From assembly GCA_905181785.1 (NCBI GenBank), contig CAJIZC010000005.1, positions 1 through 64,000 of the forward strand: a DNA stretch of 64,000 bases. Direction: 5' to 3'. Both the position numbers and the translations under genes were made by a program. The first letter of the stretch is position 1. Every line of letters starts with the position of its first letter. Of the stretch, positions 2,223-36,829 are shown one piece after another. The stretch is from an uncultured Candidatus Poseidoniales archaeon. Its GTDB lineage: Archaea > Thermoplasmatota > Poseidoniia > Poseidoniales > Poseidoniaceae. The notes under the pieces were generated by a model. The model saw only the letters and a program-made list of their open reading frames with translations, was not told the DNA's origin and ran no database searches.

Positions 2223-3449
2223 ATGTCAGACCGTGTCATACAAGAAATCGAACAACGAATGGCTCAGAAAGGAATCGACTTGAATCTGTTAAGCGATCAA
2301 GAATTATCCACCGTAGCGGAGCGTTTCCTAGGAGATGCACCTCCCGGCCACCTGCCTCGTGAGACGGTGATTGCCACGCTCAAAGGTCAAAAAGAGATTC
2401 AAGACTGGGCCATGGGAATCAAAACTCGAGTTGCAGCAGCTGCATCTGAACAAATGACCGACGCTACGCGGGCAGCCGTGACCCAAGCGCGTAATGCTTA
2501 CCAAGGAAGAATAGAATCCGATCCTAGACTGGCTATGATCACTGAAAAGTTCGGTGAATGGTTGAAGGAATCGAATTACAATGCGGCACAACTCACCGCA
2601 ATGGCTGATGCCAATCAAGACGGCATGATCAGCAACGAAGAGATTCTAAATTTAATCCGAACCATGTCCAACGCTGAACCTCCGGGTTGGGTCGCGGACC
2701 TTGTCGCAAAGCATATTGATGCTGATGGAAATGGAATGATCACGTTACCAGAGTGGTGGGCCTTCTTGGAATCCATTGGTTTTGAAAACGCAGCACCTGC
2801 TCTGCCTGAACCGATGATCCCAGAACCTGTACTTGCAGAACCCGAGCCTGCTCCCGAGCCGCTGACAACGACGCAAGTGGTTCCAGAGCCAGCACCTCAA
2901 CCAGCAACCGATGCGCTCGCCGGAATGGCCAACAACGCCTATGCAACACCCGCAACACCAGCCAAGAAAGAAATCGTCGCCCCGGCTGCAGTTGCAGTCG
3001 CTGCCGTCACAGCATCGGCGGCAATCGCCTCTGCCGCACAACCCGAGGTTGCTGCTGCGCCAACCACGCCGGTGATTCAGGATACACAATCAGCGCCTTC
3101 AACTGAACTTGCTACAGGCCACGTGGGCATTATTGAATCTCTATGGGATGCACGATTGCTTTCGGAATTCAATGCCATCGTCGCTCAATCCACTTCACAA
3201 ACCTCCACCATCAAGGTCGAAAAGGTGGAAAGGACCCTCATGGCCACCGGAGAATACCGTGGCGGACAGACCATCACCGGAACACTCGATGGAAGCGAAC
3301 ACACGGTCACCATGAGGTTCCCCGTGTCAGAAACTGAATTTGTTGAAGGGCTCAAGAAGGGCCAAATGGTCAAATCTGAAGGCGTTATCTATCGCTGGTC
3401 AGGTGCTCTCAAGCAGGCCAACCTTGAGTCAACAGGCGCACGCCTGTGA
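2223..3449 (+). CDS. EF-hand protein with Pro/Ala-rich linker and unknown C-terminal domain
   Basis: 408 residues, function unknown. An N-terminal helical region (1-120) leads to two canonical EF-hand loops: DANQDGMISNEE (129-140) and DADGNGMITLPE (166-177), both with acidic or Asn ligands at positions 1, 3, 5 and Glu at 12. A Pro/Glu-rich segment (195-230) and an Ala/Val-rich stretch (about 250-280) follow; the latter could be a weak membrane segment or a low-complexity linker. The C-terminal part (about 295-408) contains YRGGQTITGTLDG and a beta-rich pattern that might be an OB-like fold. The loop spacing of 37 residues and the W/LPE flanks closely match the EF-hand pair in AtpI of this window. 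Confidence 0.7.
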   Translation: MSDRVIQEIEQRMAQKGIDLNLLSDQELSTVAERFLGDAPPGHLPRETVIATLKGQKEIQDWAMGIKTRVAAAASEQMTDATRAAVTQARNAYQGRIESDPRLAMITEKFGEWLKESNYNAAQLTAMADANQDGMISNEEILNLIRTMSNAEPPGWVADLVAKHIDADGNGMITLPEWWAFLESIGFENAAPALPEPMIPEPVLAEPEPAPEPLTTTQVVPEPAPQPATDALAGMANNAYATPATPAKKEIVAPAAVAVAAVTASAAIASAAQPEVAAAPTTPVIQDTQSAPSTELATGHVGIIESLWDARLLSEFNAIVAQSTSQTSTIKVEKVERTLMATGEYRGGQTITGTLDGSEHTVTMRFPVSETEFVEGLKKGQMVKSEGVIYRWSGALKQANLESTGARL

Positions 3450-27925: not shown

Positions 27926-28543
27926 TCACTTGTTCTTGAATCGCTTGAGACGGAAGGTTTCTTCACGTTCCATTTCTTCAAGTCGAAGTTGAATAAACAC
28001 TCGTGCTTCTTCAAGTTCAGGGATGACCTTGAACTCCAAAGCATTGACACGTCGCTTTGTTGCTTCGATTTCTTGAAGCAGGCGCTTGAGGGTGGCCTCC
28101 ATTTCGGAGGCACGAACGATCTTTTCAATCAAGTTTCCAAAGGATTCGCCTGCTTCATCGATGTAGGGTGATGAACCAATGTAGCCAACACCACGCTCTT
28201 GGAATGTGGATTTGAGGTTGGTACCGCTGACGCTCGGAACGACAACACCCATGATGTTTCGGCGTTCGACCTCAACTTCAGGATGCCCTGTGTTGGCGAT
28301 TGCTGCTGCACGAACTGCCAGACCACCTTCGATAGCGTTGGCCAAATCGATTCGTTGCTTGGCCAAACGGTAGGTAGCGGTCAAGTCGCGCTTTGCTTCA
28401 ATCATGGTCGCCAAGAGTTGACGGAATTCGTGGAACAGGCCGTCCCGCTTCATCTTCAACAGCTTGTACCCGTTCTTGGTTTGCTTGATGCGCCCCTTGA
28501 GTTTAATCAACTCACTGCGGGTTGGCTTGATGTCGAGTGCCAT
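27926..28543 (-). CDS. atpD: A-type ATP synthase subunit D
   Basis: 205 residues. Subunit D is the central rotor shaft, a long antiparallel coiled coil inside the A3B3 head. The N-terminus IKPTRSELIKLKGRIKQTKNGYKLLKMKRDGL is the family hallmark, given here as its two halves IKPTRSELIKLKGRI and KNGYKLLKMKRDGL, and the C-terminal helix LLQEIEATKRRVNALEFKVI is also typical. Length is normal. It is the last gene of the operon, after atpB with 33 bases between and GGAGGCAAAGAAC before the ATG. Confidence 0.95.
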   Translation of the reverse strand: MALDIKPTRSELIKLKGRIKQTKNGYKLLKMKRDGLFHEFRQLLATMIEAKRDLTATYRLAKQRIDLANAIEGGLAVRAAAIANTGHPEVEVERRNIMGVVVPSVSGTNLKSTFQERGVGYIGSSPYIDEAGESFGNLIEKIVRASEMEATLKRLLQEIEATKRRVNALEFKVIPELEEARVFIQLRLEEMEREETFRLKRFKNK

Positions 28544-28576: not shown

Positions 28577-29956
28577 TCAAGACCGGTTGTCTGGGTGGTA
28601 CTTGTCAATCCACTTCTGGTCAAGTCGCACGAGGTACTTGGTGTCGATTGAGGACATCAAGGACCAGCAAAGGTCAAGGGTTTCTTCGATGGAACGGTCT
28701 TCGTCTCGGGTTTGGCGAAGGAACTTGTCTTCGAACACACCGGAGAAGTCCAGCAGTTGCTTGTCCCGTTCGTTGAGTGCGTCTTCACCGACAATTGCAA
28801 CGAGGCCACGAAGTTCACGGCCTTGTGCGTATGCAGCGTACATTTGGTCGGACACCGACTTGTGATCTTCACGGGTGGTTTTCTCACCGATGCATGAACC
28901 CATCAATCGAGAGAGCGATGGAAGCACGTTGATCGGCGGATAGATACCCTGTTGGTGCAGTTCACGAGAGATAACAATCTGACCTTCGGTGATGTAACCA
29001 GAAAGGTCCGGAATCGGGTGAGTGATATCGTCACCAGGCATGGTCAAAATTGGGAATTGAGTGATTGAACCCTTCTTGCCCTTGACGAGACCTGCCCGTT
29101 CGTAGAGCATTGCCAAATCTGTGTACATGTAACCGGGGTAACCACGTCGTCCTGGAACTTCTTCTCGAGCAGCACCAATTTGACGAAGAGCGTCACAGTA
29201 GTTGGTCATGTCCGTGTAAATCACCAGAACGTGCTTGTCCTTCTCAAACGCCAAGTATTCAGCAGCGGTCAAAGCAAGACGTGGTGTAATGATTCGCTCG
29301 ACGGCTGGGTCGTCGGCCAGGTTGACGAACAACACAGCGCTTTCGAGTGCACCAGTGCGCTCCAAATCGGAACGGAAAAAGTTGTACTCTTCAGCGGTGA
29401 TACCCATAGCGCAGAACACAACGACGAAATCTTCATCAGAATCCTTGAGTTTTGCCTGTCGGGCGATTTGCAGAGCAATGTCGTTGTGTGGAAGACCTGA
29501 TGCCGAGAAAATTGGCAACTTCTGTCCACGGACAAGACTCGTACAAAGATCGATTGCGGAAACACCAGTTTGGATGAAATCGTTTGGACTCTGTCGGCTG
29601 TATGGATTGATTGCAGCGCCGATGATGTCTTTTGTTTCTTCAGCAACAATTTCTGGTCCACCGTCACGAGGCCGTCCAGCACCGTCGAGAATTCGACCGA
29701 TGAGGTCGGTGCTCACTGGGAGCTTGAAAACGTCGCCCATGAAGGTAACACCAGCTTCTCGGTCGATCTTGGAGGTTCCTTCGAACACTTGAACGATGAC
29801 AAGGTCATCGGAGGTGTCGAGCACTTGTCCGTTCTTGATGGTACCATTGGTGAGTCGTAGGGTAACGATTTCTCCAAAAGCCACAGGTTCAGTCTTGTTC
29901 AAAAAGACCAGAGGTCCTTTCACGTCGGTAATGGTTCGGTATTCTTTTCCAGTCAT
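28577..29956 (-). CDS. atpB: A-type ATP synthase subunit B (regulatory head subunit)
   Basis: 459 residues; the non-catalytic nucleotide-binding subunit alternating with subunit A in the hexameric head. [21 protein letters not shown], the [16 protein letters not shown] segment (where a catalytic subunit would have the P-loop), [15 protein letters not shown] and [15 protein letters not shown] are diagnostic. Its P-loop region lacks GxxxxGKT, as expected for B. CTGAGGAGAGG lies before the ATG; it follows atpA by 13 bases. Confidence 0.96.
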
Positions 29957-29969
29957 GATATTCCTCTCC

Positions 29970-31709
<1,740 letters not shown>

Positions 31710-31737
31710 TTTTATTTCCTCCATTTTGGTTGGAACA

Positions 31738-32037
31738 TTACTTCCAAAGGTCGACTCCAATTGCCTTGCGAATCGTGTCACGCAAGGTTGTGTCTTCTTC
31801 CGTTCCAATGCCAAGCACGGTCGGAGAGACGGATGCCGAGAGTTGGTCGCGAAGACGCTCTGGCAGTTCAGCGAGGATTGCGGAGTCAACCACGACAATC
31901 CCGACGCTCTTGTTGTTGAGTAGTGATTTGAAAGTGGAGATCATAGCCTCTTCACTTTCGGGGTTATGCAAGACGTCGACGCCTGCAAGTTGGAAACCAA
32001 GGGTGAATTCTGGTGTACCTACAATTGCGATATCCAT
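31738..32037 (-). CDS. atpF: A-type ATP synthase subunit F
   Basis: 99 residues; the small Rossmann-like subunit on the central stalk. [19 protein letters not shown] and the [20 protein letters not shown] segment match the family. ATG 32037 is preferred to the in-frame GTG at 32046 because GAGGTG lies six bases before the ATG. It sits between atpC and atpA as in other archaeal operons. Confidence 0.92.
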
Positions 32038-32047
32038 GTCATTCACC

Positions 32048-33091
32048 TCAGTTCAATATGTGTGCTTCCAGCACATCGGTTGGCAAGCCCGCCAAGCGGC
32101 CTCGCACAATAAGTCTCAAGTCGTTCACTTCTTGCACTTTCGTAGCAATATAGTGGATGACAGGTAAAGCAGACACTGGATGCAAGAAACTCATGCGCGC
32201 CATCTTCTTGTGTTCGCGTTCTTTTAGCCATGTCACAACGGCGTCAAGGCTTCGAGTTTCGTTTGATGTGGCAAGAGCTTCTTCGAACGCAGCACCGTCA
32301 AATCGAGGGGCATTGCGGAGCATGTCCAGCATAGCGTCTTTTCCACCGGTAGCAATGGCGGAGAAGGCTCGCTTGGGCAAGATCTTGCCGCCCGGAAGAA
32401 GCAAGTCTACAATTTGTTCGTTTGACAACCCAACGGCCTTGGCTTCAAGGACGTTGAGGATGTTGCGGTGATCGATTTCACTTGCCACCAAATCCTTGAG
32501 GAATCGAACATCAGGTCCTTTTCCAGTTAGGGCTTTGAGAGCGTTTGTGAAGTAGTGGCGATCAAGAGCGTCTTCATACTCGGAGAGTCGAGCATCTTCA
32601 GGAACAGCATTGAGCGCAGATCCAAAGGATTTACGTCGCATTTGGACCGCAGCGGAACGCAGATCGTCTGCATTCTCGATGATTTTGATCCATGGTGTGT
32701 TGATGTCGTTCAAGTCCGGAAGGATTGAATTGGTCACCTTTTCAAGTTCCACATCGTTCACGACAGCGCGCAACACAACCTTTGCGTTGTGATATTCGTA
32801 GCGTGAAGTGTAGATTTCGACCATGCCACGAATCTTACCGTTGCACAGGCCGACCATCTTGTCGAGTTCATGTTCTAAGTTGTGAGTGAGGGCAGCTTCA
32901 ACCAAATCACCGCCGGTCAAACGACCTGCGTACATATCCATCTCAGCTCGGTAACCAATGTCGCCAATGGCTACGGTCAACTGATCTGGAGATTGGCTGA
33001 TGAGTTGGCGCAGACGGGCACGGTCCGCAAGTTTCTGCCGACGAGCCTTCGCTCGGGCAGCAACGTAGGGTGTGTTTCCGTTCATGACCAT
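32048..33091 (-). CDS. atpC: A-type ATP synthase subunit C
   Basis: 347 residues, homologous to V-ATPase subunit d, the funnel that joins the central stalk to the membrane ring. RAEMDMYAGRLTGGDLVEAAL, the YEYHNAKVVLRAVVND segment and LADRARLRQLIS fit the family, which is mostly helical with three similar lobes. GAGGGATTAAG precedes ATG 33091. Gene order atpE-atpC-atpF is conserved. Confidence 0.9.
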   Translation of the reverse strand: MVMNGNTPYVAARAKARRQKLADRARLRQLISQSPDQLTVAIGDIGYRAEMDMYAGRLTGGDLVEAALTHNLEHELDKMVGLCNGKIRGMVEIYTSRYEYHNAKVVLRAVVNDVELEKVTNSILPDLNDINTPWIKIIENADDLRSAAVQMRRKSFGSALNAVPEDARLSEYEDALDRHYFTNALKALTGKGPDVRFLKDLVASEIDHRNILNVLEAKAVGLSNEQIVDLLLPGGKILPKRAFSAIATGGKDAMLDMLRNAPRFDGAAFEEALATSNETRSLDAVVTWLKEREHKKMARMSFLHPVSALPVIHYIATKVQEVNDLRLIVRGRLAGLPTDVLEAHILN

Positions 33092-33100
33092 CTTAATCCC

Positions 33101-33661
33101 TCATTCAAACAAAATTGTTGTCGTCGAACTCAATTGGTCTTTCCAAGACTTGTCGAGCAATGTATCAAATCGCATGTCGTAAGAAACAGAGCCGTCGGTG
33201 GCTTCGAGAATAAAGCCTCCAATGCCGTCGACTGCATCGCCCATGCCTCGCTTTCCGGCGAGTTCTGAAAGTGCTTTGCGGTCCATTTCCACAGGTCGGA
33301 CATTGAAGTCCTTACCAATGTCATCGGCCTTGGCCATCAGGGACTTGAGCAAGCTTGCTCGTCCCTTCATTTTCGGACTGCTGAGTTCTGCTCGAGTTGC
33401 TGCCAGGGTTTCGTCCAGCACCTTTCGGCGTGCGACGAGAATTTCTTTCTGGTTGGCTTGGCGAGCGCTTGCAACGACTTCACGAGCAATTTGAGTTGCT
33501 TCACGTTCGGTGCGAGTGGCCGCTTCTGAGCGGATCGTTGCAGCCTTTTCGGTTGCTTCTGCCACGATGACATCGGCTTCTTCTTGGGCCGTTGCAATCA
33601 TAGCATCGGCTTCTGCCTTAGCTGATTTTGAGATGTCTTTTGCGAGTGTTTCAAGCGTCAT
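33101..33661 (-). CDS. atpE: A-type ATP synthase subunit E (peripheral stalk)
   Basis: 186 residues. The N-terminal 100 residues are an Ala/Glu-rich coiled coil (AKAEADAMIATAQEEADVIV) that pairs with subunit H to form the peripheral stalk; the C-terminal globular part (AVDGIGGFILEATDGSVSYD) is the conserved cap that contacts the head. ATG 33661 is chosen because a perfect GGAGG lies 7 bases upstream. Confidence 0.92.
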   Translation of the reverse strand: MTLETLAKDISKSAKAEADAMIATAQEEADVIVAEATEKAATIRSEAATRTEREATQIAREVVASARQANQKEILVARRKVLDETLAATRAELSSPKMKGRASLLKSLMAKADDIGKDFNVRPVEMDRKALSELAGKRGMGDAVDGIGGFILEATDGSVSYDMRFDTLLDKSWKDQLSSTTTILFE

Positions 33662-33725
33662 TGTATTTCCTCCGGATGTTGATTTCAATTGGCCGGAAAA
33701 CCGGCCCTTCCATCATTGGGCTTCC

Positions 33726-34031
33726 TCATAGGAAGAGCGGTAGAGCACCGAGAATGACGATAGATTCCGGCAAAGCAGTGAAAATCAATGCTGGTCCGAA
33801 TTTGCTTCCGTCTTCTGCGAGCATACCGACAGCTGCGCTGCCAATGGCTGCTTGGGAGAGGCCGGCGCCAATTGCGGCGAGGCCGAGTGCGATACCAGCG
33901 CCAATGGCTGTGTATCCGTCACCGTCTGATGCTCCGGCTGGGTCTGCTGCTGCTGCGCCTTGAGCAACCATGGTGATGGCTGCCAAAAGGATCAGTGTTC
34001 TTAGGCTCGTTTTTAGGGTGTTTGCGTTCAT
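33726..34031 (-). CDS. atpK: A-type ATP synthase membrane rotor subunit K (c ring)
   Basis: 101 residues. An N-terminal hydrophobic segment (10-29, LRTLILLAAITMVAQGAAAA) looks like a cleavable signal. One helical hairpin follows: TM1 about 42-65 with GLSQAAIGSAAVG, and TM2 about 78-100 with FTALPESIVILGAL. Glu89 is the ion-carrying carboxylate. Gln60 in TM1 and Ser90 after the Glu are the residues that accompany Na+ binding in sodium-type c subunits, so Na+ coupling is possible. GAGGTAGCAAAT precedes the ATG. Confidence 0.93.
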   Translation of the reverse strand: MNANTLKTSLRTLILLAAITMVAQGAAAADPAGASDGDGYTAIGAGIALGLAAIGAGLSQAAIGSAAVGMLAEDGSKFGPALIFTALPESIVILGALPLFL

Positions 34032-34064: not shown

Positions 34065-36467
34065 CTATGATTGACCCTCTACATGGAGGGAACGGCCGCC
34101 CAGCGGTGCGAAAGCACGGCCGGATCCGTCGTAGAATTTGCCCATCCATTCCACAAAGTGGAGGCGGGCTGCGTGAATGGTAGGAGAGAGGATGCCAAGA
34201 GCCAAAGCAAACACCTGGACGAAGAGGAAGATGACGAGGCACAACGCTGCGGTAAGGTAGCCAGATGCGCCACCGGCATCAAGGCCGGCGAGGATGTTTT
34301 CCCAGCCGAGAATGATGGAGACTTCTGCGATCTTTACGCCTGCGACACCAACCGCCATGATGCGGAGGTAAGAGAGGGTGTTTGCAAGCAGTCCGAAGGT
34401 CTCAATGGGGCCCATGATGATGCCACCGGCCCAGCCAAATCCTTCGTATATCGCCAGGCCAACGATAAGGCACAGAATTCCACCGATGAGGAGGAGGTTC
34501 CAAACGATCTGGAGTTCAAACAATTCGTTGTAGCCCATCACAAAGTTGCGGCAGACCATGAAGCCGCCGGCCAAAATCATCAGCCAAGAGCCCTTTTCGA
34601 AGAACGCTGCAGTAAATCCATGCGCCTTGTTGACGTTGGTGAATCCGATGATGAGGCCCACAAGGATATGGAAGACGCCCAAGTAGACGGCCAGCGAAAC
34701 GTACTGTTCGAGGCCGTGTCCTGCACTTGCACGGTGGAATGGCATCATGACGAATGGATGGTCTGGATCGCCGAGTCCGAGGAACACAGCGATGTTTTCA
34801 GGAAGCACGAAGAAATCGTGAGCCCAGTCATAGAAGGAAGTGAGGAACCCAATGTCAGGCCCCCATCGATACCCGTCTTTGAGGACGCCAGCGCTGTCAA
34901 ACATGCTTCCATCCCATACGAACCCAAAGCCTTCTGCAAAAATGATGCCCCATACTATGCATGAGATCCCCATCCAGCGGAGAATGGTCATTCCCTTTTG
35001 GGCGAGTGGATCCACAGCGAATGGCTTGGAACCAAGCCAAAGTGAGAGAAGAACAAGAATGAGCCCGTAGCCCCAATCGCCCAAAATCATCCCATAGATG
35101 AGAGGGAAGGTCATCATGATGAGCATGGATGGCTCAAAGGTACCGTACTTCGGCCGGCCGACAAGGTCGACAAGCAGTTCGTATGGCTGGGTTGCCTTTC
35201 CGTTTTCAAACTGAATCGGAGGCGTTGGCTCTTCGTGGTGTTCGTCGGAAGCCGGCATAGCCCGAATCATGGTGAGGGAGATGTCCAGTTCAGGCAAATT
35301 GATCTTGCCATCGCCGTCCAAATCCATAGCCTGAACCAGCGGGCCGACGTCCCAAGGTGGGAGATCTGCAACGTTAGCGCTCTTGAGCGCTTGCTGGAAT
35401 TCATAGCTGTCGATTTTACCGGAGTCGTCCAGATCCATCGACTTGAAGAATTGGAAGATTGATTGCTTGGTCCTGAGCAAATAATCAGAGAGCATCACAA
35501 GTTCTTTTGCCACATCAGGTGTTGATTCCCCATGGTCACCGTGGCCGTGGTGAGGATCCACATACGCTTCGACGCTGACGTGCGATGCGACTTTGCCAAG
35601 TTTCGACTTGACCATTTCACCTTGCGAGGTTGGGACCCAGCCGTCGAGAGCGAAGGCTTGGTCGCTTACTGCGACAAGGGTTGGAGCGGTGTAGATTGAA
35701 TCCTCGCGGGTCAAAAATTCAGAAAGCGCGACGAGCGAGCGAGCGTTTCGGTCAACCCAAGCATCCAGCGCTTCTTGAGTCGAGGCGATGGTGTTCTCGA
35801 GGGAGGTGATTTCGGAAGTGACATCGCTCAGTTTCTTAGCGGGTGAACCTTCACCTGCTGGAATCTGAACTGCTTTTGCCCCGAGTTCTGCAAGACAAAT
35901 CTGCACTTCTGCTGCGTGCTGAGTCTGGCATGCAACGGCAACGACGCCTGGTGCGCTGTGGAGGAGAATTTCGGTACCGAGGGCTGCAAAGACGCTCTTT
36001 GCCTTGCTTGCTCTGGCGGTTTCTCCAACATAGACTTCGAGTCCATCGAAGCCGCCCATGAGTTCAAGGGGGATGTCGAGGGGAGCGAGGCGCTTGAGCA
36101 CCTGCAGTTGATCGTTGAGCGTTGTGATTGAAGCCTCGCTGTCTCGAATTGTGTCGAGGTATGCGAGCGCGTCGTCGATTTTAGCCTCAAAGGTCTCGGC
36201 CAGTGCCTTGGCTTTTGCAGCAGGAACTGGCCCGTCGGTGTTCACGGCGCTGACAGCAGACAGGACGGCTCGAACTTTGGTGAGCAGAGCGCTGGTTTGA
36301 TTGGCCCCTTCGGTGGAAAGAGCTCGACCAACGCCGATTCCGTCTTGGAACTGGCCATATTCTTCAATGTGAACGCAGGAAAGCGAAGCGCAGACCCTCA
36401 GAACGTCTTCCATCTTATCGACGGGAGCCGCCACGGTGAGGCGGGACATTTCTGCGGTTGCGAACAT
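34065..36467 (-). CDS. atpI: A-type ATP synthase subunit I (stator a subunit) with inserted EF-hand pair
   Basis: 800 residues against about 650-700 usually. The N-terminal cytoplasmic arm (1-300) anchors the peripheral stalks; the membrane domain (about 445-770) has seven or eight segments and TLSYLRIMAVGVAG, in which Arg702 is the essential half-channel arginine. Between the two is an insert of about 120 residues: a His-rich stretch (DPHHGHGDHGE, 304-314), then two canonical EF-hands, DLDDSGKIDSYE (345-356) and DLDGDGKINLPE (382-393). All calcium ligand positions 1, 3, 5, 9 and 12 are suitable. This suggests Ca2+ sensing at the stator, which I do not know from other A-ATPases. Second gene of the operon, after atpH. 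Confidence 0.92.
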   Translation of the reverse strand: MFATAEMSRLTVAAPVDKMEDVLRVCASLSCVHIEEYGQFQDGIGVGRALSTEGANQTSALLTKVRAVLSAVSAVNTDGPVPAAKAKALAETFEAKIDDALAYLDTIRDSEASITTLNDQLQVLKRLAPLDIPLELMGGFDGLEVYVGETARASKAKSVFAALGTEILLHSAPGVVAVACQTQHAAEVQICLAELGAKAVQIPAGEGSPAKKLSDVTSEITSLENTIASTQEALDAWVDRNARSLVALSEFLTREDSIYTAPTLVAVSDQAFALDGWVPTSQGEMVKSKLGKVASHVSVEAYVDPHHGHGDHGESTPDVAKELVMLSDYLLRTKQSIFQFFKSMDLDDSGKIDSYEFQQALKSANVADLPPWDVGPLVQAMDLDGDGKINLPELDISLTMIRAMPASDEHHEEPTPPIQFENGKATQPYELLVDLVGRPKYGTFEPSMLIMMTFPLIYGMILGDWGYGLILVLLSLWLGSKPFAVDPLAQKGMTILRWMGISCIVWGIIFAEGFGFVWDGSMFDSAGVLKDGYRWGPDIGFLTSFYDWAHDFFVLPENIAVFLGLGDPDHPFVMMPFHRASAGHGLEQYVSLAVYLGVFHILVGLIIGFTNVNKAHGFTAAFFEKGSWLMILAGGFMVCRNFVMGYNELFELQIVWNLLLIGGILCLIVGLAIYEGFGWAGGIIMGPIETFGLLANTLSYLRIMAVGVAGVKIAEVSIILGWENILAGLDAGGASGYLTAALCLVIFLFVQVFALALGILSPTIHAARLHFVEWMGKFYDGSGRAFAPLGGRSLHVEGQS

Positions 36468-36476
36468 GGGAACAAC

Positions 36477-36794
36477 TCACTGGGAATTTACGGTTTCGAG
36501 AAGGTGTGCAACCGCCTTCTTTTGGCGGCCTGCTGCTGAGGATTCGATTGATTCGACGACCTTGTGCCCTTCCTTGGCCACGCCGTCTGCTTCCTTGTTT
36601 GCTTCACTGCGAGCAGCGTCGAGTGTGACTTGAGTATCGGCGACCGAGCCATCGGTTGCGTCGGCAACGAGTTGCACGGATTGACGCCGTGCTTCTGCTG
36701 CGATTCGACTGACTTCTGCTTGGGCGTCTGCAAGTTGCTTTTCGGCATCTTGTTCGGCTTGCTTGATTTTACGAAGGACATCGGCCATACCCAT
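36477..36794 (-). CDS. atpH: A-type ATP synthase subunit H (peripheral stalk)
   Basis: 105 residues of almost continuous coiled coil (VLRKIKQAEQDAEKQLADAQ, EANKEADGVAKEGHKVVES), as expected of the stalk partner of subunit E. It is the first gene of the ATP synthase operon. The start at ATG 36794 is supported by GGTGATTATT directly upstream; ATG 36788 two codons later is possible. Confidence 0.85.
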   Translation of the reverse strand: MGMADVLRKIKQAEQDAEKQLADAQAEVSRIAAEARRQSVQLVADATDGSVADTQVTLDAARSEANKEADGVAKEGHKVVESIESSAAGRQKKAVAHLLETVNSQ

Positions 36795-36829
36795 AATAAT
36801 CACCAGCATTTTCGCTGAATGGTAGGGGG

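Follow-up and report, generated by a model that had tools for sequence, protein, structure and literature searches.

The atpI gene of a marine Poseidoniales archaeon raises the question of whether a rotary ATP synthase can carry a calcium-binding module within its own stator and, if so, whether calcium might tune the enzyme through it. We know of no rotary ATPase with direct Ca2+ control through a built-in EF-hand. The marine archaea of this group have no cultured isolates and Ca2+ signalling in archaea is little understood. The group is described as globally abundant in the title of PMC6336850. The window, i.e. the whole stretch of DNA analysed, comprises 64,000 nucleotides of assembly GCA_905181785.1 (contig CAJIZC010000005.1, positions 1–64,000), a 31-contig draft that is about 80% complete. 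A first-pass annotation of this sequence had placed two canonical EF-hand loops in AtpI, at residues 345–356 and 382–393, between the cytoplasmic arm and the membrane domain with Arg702. The relevant features are as follows:

34065–36467, minus strand: AtpI, A-type ATP synthase subunit I of 800 amino acids with the EF-hand module inserted (open reading frame; PF01496, E 4.3e-34; PDB fold 6r0z_N)
35559–36467, minus strand: N-terminal cytoplasmic stator-arm domain, residues 1–303 (AlphaFold2 model; PDB 3rrk among the fold matches)
35526–35558, minus strand: His-rich stretch, residues 304–314, part of an older linker (22 insert-less rows have a His/Asp-rich linker there)
35256–35507, minus strand: EF-hand module proper, residues 321–404, with an extra N-terminal helix, two EF-hands and an LPPW connector
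35400–35435, minus strand: EF loop 1, residues 345–356, DLDDSGKIDSYE
35289–35324, minus strand: EF loop 2, residues 382–393, DLDGDGKINLPE
35220–35255, minus strand: C-terminal linker, residues 405–416 (DEHHEE)
34068–35219, minus strand: membrane domain, residues 417–800, containing the conserved Arg702
36477–36809, minus strand: AtpH, peripheral stalk, G-like (PF16999, E 3.5e-4, under the cut-off)
33726–34031, minus strand: AtpK, c subunit, with an LPES motif (PF00137)
33101–33688, minus strand: AtpE (PF01991)
32048–33091, minus strand: AtpC, C/AC39 (PF01992)
31738–32046, minus strand: AtpF (PF01990)
29970–31898, minus strand: AtpA (PF00006, PF16886)
28577–29956, minus strand: AtpB (PF00006)
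27926–28543, minus strand: AtpD (PF01813)

The host operon is complete, in the order H-I-K-E-C-F-A-B-D, with eight of the nine products over their Pfam cut-offs and AtpH under. AtpI itself scores 118 bits against V_ATPase_I (PF01496; curated cut-off 30.7), and its AlphaFold2 model (residues 2–800, mean pLDDT 73.5) has Thermus subunit I (6r0z_N) as its best PDB fold match, with E 2e-20 and TM scores of 0.54 and 0.65. Arg702, which we take to be the membrane arginine at the ion channel, is invariant in all 57 alignment rows (as R701 in the numbering of that alignment, whose first row begins at residue 2) and aligns with an arginine in two solved a/I chains in the PDB sequence alignments printed. 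The protein thus resembles Thermus 6r0z_N, A-type subunit I and V-type subunit a in fold, domain order, membrane arginine and operon; it departs from them in having an EF-hand module added where the arm leads into the membrane domain. AtpK of the window contains the LPESxxI motif from which Tully (2019) proposed a probably Na+-coupled A1AO ATP synthase for this group (PMC6336850, available text).

Sequence and fold confirm a canonical EF-hand pair at this position, as the first-pass annotation had claimed. Both loops are 12 residues long, with acidic or polar ligands at positions 1, 3, 5 and 9 and Glu at position 12, and AtpI exceeds the curated Pfam cut-offs for EF-hand_1, EF-hand_5, EF-hand_6 and EF-hand_7; EF-hand_8 scores under its cut-off. 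The strict EF-loop pattern occurs twice in AtpI; over 20,000 shuffles of its residues the mean was 0.0002 per protein, and no shuffle contained two. When the 97-residue segment was modelled in isolation, AlphaFold2 returned two helix-loop-helix units with short paired strands (mean pLDDT 82.9), the paired fold expected from the loops. A Foldseek comparison of this model with the PDB gave mostly EF-hand proteins among the best 50 matches, although with the weak E-values of a small domain (best E 0.02 and none under 0.001 among the matches listed). A PDB sequence search with AtpI separated the two parts of the protein: among the best 60 of 175 matches, the a/I subunits scored best over stretches away from the EF loops, and the loops themselves were matched by chains of other EF-hand proteins. 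Both the model and the PDB alignments place the insert after the cytoplasmic arm and ahead of the first membrane helices. In loop spacing, ligands and paired helix-loop-helix units the module resembles a calmodulin lobe, centrin or CDPK (PF13499); unlike such canonical pairs, it sits within the stator subunit of a rotary ATPase and has an extra leading helix, the LPPW connector and His/Asp-rich linkers.

Conservation was assessed in an alignment of 56 loci plus the window, drawn from the best 80 of 122 loci after near-duplicate, truncated and frame-broken entries had been omitted. Positions 345, 347, 349, 356, 382, 386, 390 and 393 are invariant in all 35 insert-bearing rows. Loop 1 is therefore fixed at positions 1, 3, 5 and 12, with Asp (24 rows) or Glu (11 rows) at position 9 (residue 353); loop 2 is fixed at positions 1, 5, 9 and 12, with Asp (23) or Asn (12) at position 3 (residue 384), such that seven of the eight residues at positions 1, 3, 5 and 12 of the two loops are invariant. 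The LPPW connector prolines (P55 and P56 in segment numbering) are likewise invariant in 35/35 rows. The mean majority fraction reaches 0.75 in the module, as compared with 0.60 and 0.53 in its flanking linkers, 0.71 in the arm and 0.82 in the membrane domain. Median dN/dS is 0.04–0.06 for the insert as against 0.05–0.06 for the membrane domain, so overall no lower in the insert, and since synonymous sites are saturated (usable pairs 14/36, 33/78 and 5/66) these low values serve as a sign only. Judging from its sequence, the pair likely binds Ca2+.

To establish how widely AtpI carries this module, 243 Poseidoniales genomes of at least 70% completeness, drawn evenly, were searched with the insert and both its flanks. 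Of the 48 genomes that belong to the window's genus, 41 gave a full-length match across the insert, as against none, among the matches listed, of the 195 genomes outside it; the weakest full-length match (E 1.2e-52) is far stronger than the first of the partial ones (E 3.3e-39). Five of the seven exceptions within the genus (G001, G007, G112, G217 and G235) have an insert-less AtpI frame of 694–695 amino acids, and in the other two (G032 and G024) the AtpI pieces stop short of the insert. Of three same-genus genomes beyond this set, two lack the insert (G253, G255) and one bears it (G256). AtpI identity to the window ranges from 57 to 100% in a set overlapping the 48 genomes, and the insert is also present on a one-contig chromosome (L044/CM001443). 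The module is absent from the AtpI sequences of other genera that were read. In a sample of 117 genomes across the phylum, full-length matches came from nine, which are the sample's members of the window's genus; each of the 25 genomes that matched at all at E 1e-8 falls within the order Poseidoniales. Some members of the genus, as well as the other genera read, do without the module in AtpI, so it is dispensable there; and because insert-less AtpI works in close relatives, any effect of the module must be modulatory.

An AtpI tree computed after removal of the insert columns (91 sequences, 671 columns; frames under 560 amino acids, frames with N runs and duplicates left out) placed all 44 insert-bearing sequences in one clade (SH-aLRT 96.7, bootstrap 99), from which we conclude that AtpI gained the module once. 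The neighbouring group (100/100) is made up of seven AtpI that lack the insert, six being from the window's genus, and both lie within a clade supported at 99.4/100. A His/Asp-rich linker occupies the insert site in the 22 insert-less rows printed, which indicates that the module was placed inside an existing linker of this kind. This bears on the His-rich stretch at residues 304–314, which the first-pass annotation had described as preceding the loops: it does contain four histidines and does lie ahead of them, but it is better taken as part of the older linker. Its inclusion in the insertion was rejected given the linker already present in insert-less AtpI, and the histidines are probably older than the EF-hands.

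The module is not confined to AtpI; a unit of about 85 residues recurs on other membrane proteins of Poseidoniales, retaining the extra N-terminal helix across host proteins and the LPPW connector in most copies. In genus g11 it lies within NuoL (PF00361, PF00662, EF-hand_1, EF-hand_5 and EF-hand_6 over their cut-offs, EF-hand_7 just under), and a NuoL match spans the module in 27 of 28 g11 genomes; in the remaining one (G213) the match begins just past it. The site is a loop with a conserved SVIHEVHH-like motif ahead of it and MGGL behind it. In most of 15 readable insert-less NuoL this loop is rich in His and Asp, and in the printed alignments with two solved homologues it follows the corresponding helix; it presumably faces the cytoplasm. 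In the four g11 genomes read for both proteins (G060, G061, G080 and G104), NuoL carries the module and AtpI does not. In the window's own genus a NuoL match reached the threshold in 55 of 59 genomes searched. In intact frames of 747–763 amino acids (776 in G246) this match breaks off around query residue 450, and a second piece, if listed, picks up again around residue 540, so that the module is absent from intact NuoL frames of this genus. One longer frame of 863 amino acids (G203) has a run of N at the module site. The second family has the module in genus g9, on a NuoJ-like protein of 349 residues (NuoJ E 0.001, under the cut-off), where it sits behind the NuoJ-like segment. The gene of this protein lies directly before that of a NuoL whose EF pair is divergent, at 32% identity to the AtpI insert.

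The sequence in the window's genome most closely related to the insert (62% identity) forms the C-terminal tail of a polytopic protein of 659 residues. A search with this protein, tail included, gave matches in 240 of the 243 genomes of the order, some of them to the EF part alone, as appears to be the case for G031 and G021. We tentatively regard the protein as a ligand-less relative of COX1, and call it COX1-like only in that sense, given that Pfam COX1 was matched by 1 of 27 members of its family (E 8.1e-8), that the family has no invariant His and that a PDB profile search returned no match at E up to 1. Direct reading showed the EF tail on COX1-like proteins of seven genera of Poseidoniaceae (g1, g11, g13, g14, g15, g17 and g20); in the second family, the COX1-like matches listed stop near or before the start of the tail.

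EF-domain trees, from which domains with N runs, under 70 amino acids or duplicated were left out, are weakly supported; in that of 118 sequences, two NuoL modules group with a COX1-like tail and the AtpI modules fall in two groups, one of which includes a COX1-like tail. In a subset of 45 sequences, without the divergent NuoL copy N_L198, neither monophyly of the AtpI modules (AU p 0.44) nor that of the NuoL modules (0.61) was rejected, and a single clade of AtpI and NuoL modules was borderline (AU p 0.071).

Our preferred reading, which we hold to be an even call, is that AtpI gained its EF-hand pair once from this Poseidoniales module family and that Ca2+ loading tunes the ATP synthase. Each module would bind two Ca2+, as Glu at position 12 of both loops suggests, and would lie on the cytoplasmic side at the foot of the stator arm. 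Ca2+ loading could then reshape the EF pair and so shift the geometry or contacts of the arm, the linker and neighbours on the membrane part, with the result that ATP synthesis or hydrolysis would respond to cytosolic Ca2+. The module would thus act as an intrinsic regulator or brake outside the rotary chemistry, and the parallel insertion in NuoL would fit a shared cytosolic input to coupling enzymes. A Ca2+-regulated ATP synthase is plausible on this sequence evidence: the ligands are conserved, the same module is found on NuoL and there is precedent in the EF-hand insertion of NDB dehydrogenases. On the other side, this is a generic, travelling Poseidoniales module whose recurrence could reflect promiscuity and a generic role in binding, and the EF-like domain of mEAK-7 proved structural in the available account of it, though key ligands are missing there. 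If the preferred reading is true, such control would, as far as we know, be new among rotary ATPases; and the idea lends itself to a direct test, since AtpI gained the module once and the insert-less AtpI of the genus can serve as natural controls.

A broader version, that a mobile cytosolic EF-hand module serves Poseidoniales as a plug-in Ca2+ sensor through which cytosolic Ca2+ directly gates the generation or use of ion-motive force, is more doubtful and we offer it tentatively. It would cover AtpI in the window's genus, NuoL in another genus of the family, and the NuoJ-like protein and divergent NuoL in g9. On this version the enzyme would, as far as we know, be the first rotary ATPase to carry a Ca2+ sensor of its own. 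The presence of the module on both ATP synthase and complex I subunits suggests that coupling takes a shared input, either cytosolic Ca2+ or a common partner. With the module in AtpI of one genus and on the respiratory chain in related genera, these cells may link energy conversion with calcium.

One alternative is a docking domain constitutively loaded with metal (Ca2+ or Mg2+), a rigid surface that would stabilize assembly without sensing Ca2+ and that might, for example, tie ATP synthase, complex I or the COX1-like protein to one another or to a shared partner in the cytosol. Such a role would leave an identical sequence signature, and the preservation of the module on several different membrane proteins, extra helix included and LPPW connector in most, is in keeping with it, as is the invariance (35/35) of P55 and P56, which are not ligands but are as fixed as most of the ligands are. 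The structural EF-like domain of mEAK-7 on the V-ATPase, so far as the available text describes it, also favours docking. The full ligand sets kept in both loops, however, are not obviously needed for a purely structural role, and we consider docking possible rather than probable.

It is less likely again that the module is a tolerated insertion, a mobile EF-hand unit that folds and binds metal in flexible linkers without regulatory effect. Both sites, in AtpI and NuoL, are His/Asp-rich linkers, and the lineage-wise distribution, with genomes such as G001 and G007 that have an insert-less AtpI and a 747-residue NuoL, would suit such an origin. Against this, the module has been kept in 41 of the 48 same-genus genomes, with AtpI identities of 57–100% to the window in the overlapping set, its ligands are invariant in 35/35 rows and its recurrent placement on coupling enzymes argues for selection. 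An assembly chimera or mis-called frame, which the 31 contigs and about 80% completeness of the source and the odd organism labels on some relatives' records (L039, L108) might have suggested, was rejected as wholly improbable, since relatives bear the same insertion (41/48 same-genus genomes and the one-contig chromosome L044) in continuous open frames with conserved ligands.

Comparison with known systems returns to the preferred reading of a Ca2+-responsive ATP synthase. The type II dehydrogenase of NDB is non-pumping. According to the available text of PMC4587368, the EF-hand domain of plant mitochondrial NDB extends a surface loop and Ca2+ dependence has been measured; as in AtpI, an EF-hand domain is thereby set in a linker or surface loop of a respiratory enzyme. 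These external NAD(P)H dehydrogenases differ from AtpI in being unrelated, eukaryotic type II enzymes with one canonical EF-hand and an EF-like motif, as described there. AtpI has relatives without the module and carries it as an insertion in a linker, and thus shares the architecture of the NDB-like mode. The mammalian V-ATPase offers a second parallel, in that the TLDc protein mEAK-7 brings an EF-hand-like domain to a rotary ATPase; unlike the AtpI module, this belongs to a separate protein with a TLDc domain, lacks key ligands and appears, in the available text, to be structural and non-Ca2+-binding (PMC9263379). No TLDc domain was among the Pfam matches of AtpI at E up to 0.1.

The first-pass annotation had also noted that no subunit I or a of an A- or V-type ATPase was known to it with EF-hands. 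Among the matches listed in the open-access literature, no description of an EF-hand in subunit I/a or NuoL was found in the text available. The words 'calcium' and 'EF-hand' are absent from the main text of PMC6336850, and 'calcium' from those of PMC9723583 and PMC11237513, as far as these were available. Calcium-binding domains are reported in modules specific to Poseidoniaceae and Thalassarchaeaceae (PMC9258230), where the available passages on them name neither ATP synthase nor complex I subunits. The window's genome also encodes two CaCA-family exchangers, which could help to keep cytosolic Ca2+ low.

The EF-hand module, the calmodulin-like EF-hand pair inserted in AtpI, also forms the tail of a second membrane protein in the genome of the window (G000), and two further proteins of this genome carry EF-hand matches:

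L131:4777-6756 (G000:C9), 659-aa polytopic protein with the same module as in AtpI as its tail
L001:1231-3114 (G000:C11), 627-aa protein with two EF-hand pair matches
window 2223-3449, 408-aa ORF with EF-hand Pfam matches above cut-off

The 659-aa protein is tentatively assigned as COX1-like, but its family lacks any invariant histidine. A search with this protein matched 240 of the 243 Poseidoniales genomes, some of them apparently through the EF part alone. The version at locus L210 (genus g15) has a tandem pair of EF-hand modules; and in part of the window's genus (L120, L121, L122, L142 and L145) the tail is closed by a SAP-like motif, KMKKAELVELA..GTKxDL, which is odd for a membrane protein. 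The 627-aa protein has very acidic linkers and a double-zinc-ribbon-like N-terminal part (match below cut-off), and the 408-aa ORF had no Pfam match besides EF-hand at E 0.01.

EF-hand pairs were also present in complex I subunits of two other genera, g11 and g9:

L195:2485-5058, minus strand, g11 NuoL with the EF-hand module inside a His/Asp-rich loop
L198:1884-2930 (G169:C41), g9 NuoJ-like segment with an EF-hand tail and a helix-hairpin-helix-like end
L198, frame from 3225 (G169:C41), g9 NuoL with a divergent EF pair, directly after the NuoJ-like segment

The g11 arrangement recurs at L194, L196, L204 and L207. Most of the 15 readable NuoL loops lacking the insert (L248, L249, L250 and L251 among them) are themselves strongly His/Asp-rich, and this loop is possibly a metal-binding one.

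In the window, AtpK (33726-34031), the ATP synthase c subunit, contains an LPES motif, interpreted in one study as a sign of Na+ coupling (PMC6336850).

The AtpI of L126, from a genome assigned to the second family (G036), groups in the tree with those of Poseidoniaceae genera g13 and g16, which may reflect either transfer or mis-binning. Contigs L039 and L108 encode Poseidoniales AtpI in records under Flavobacteriales and Rhodobiaceae names, and are likely to be mislabelled records or mixed bins.
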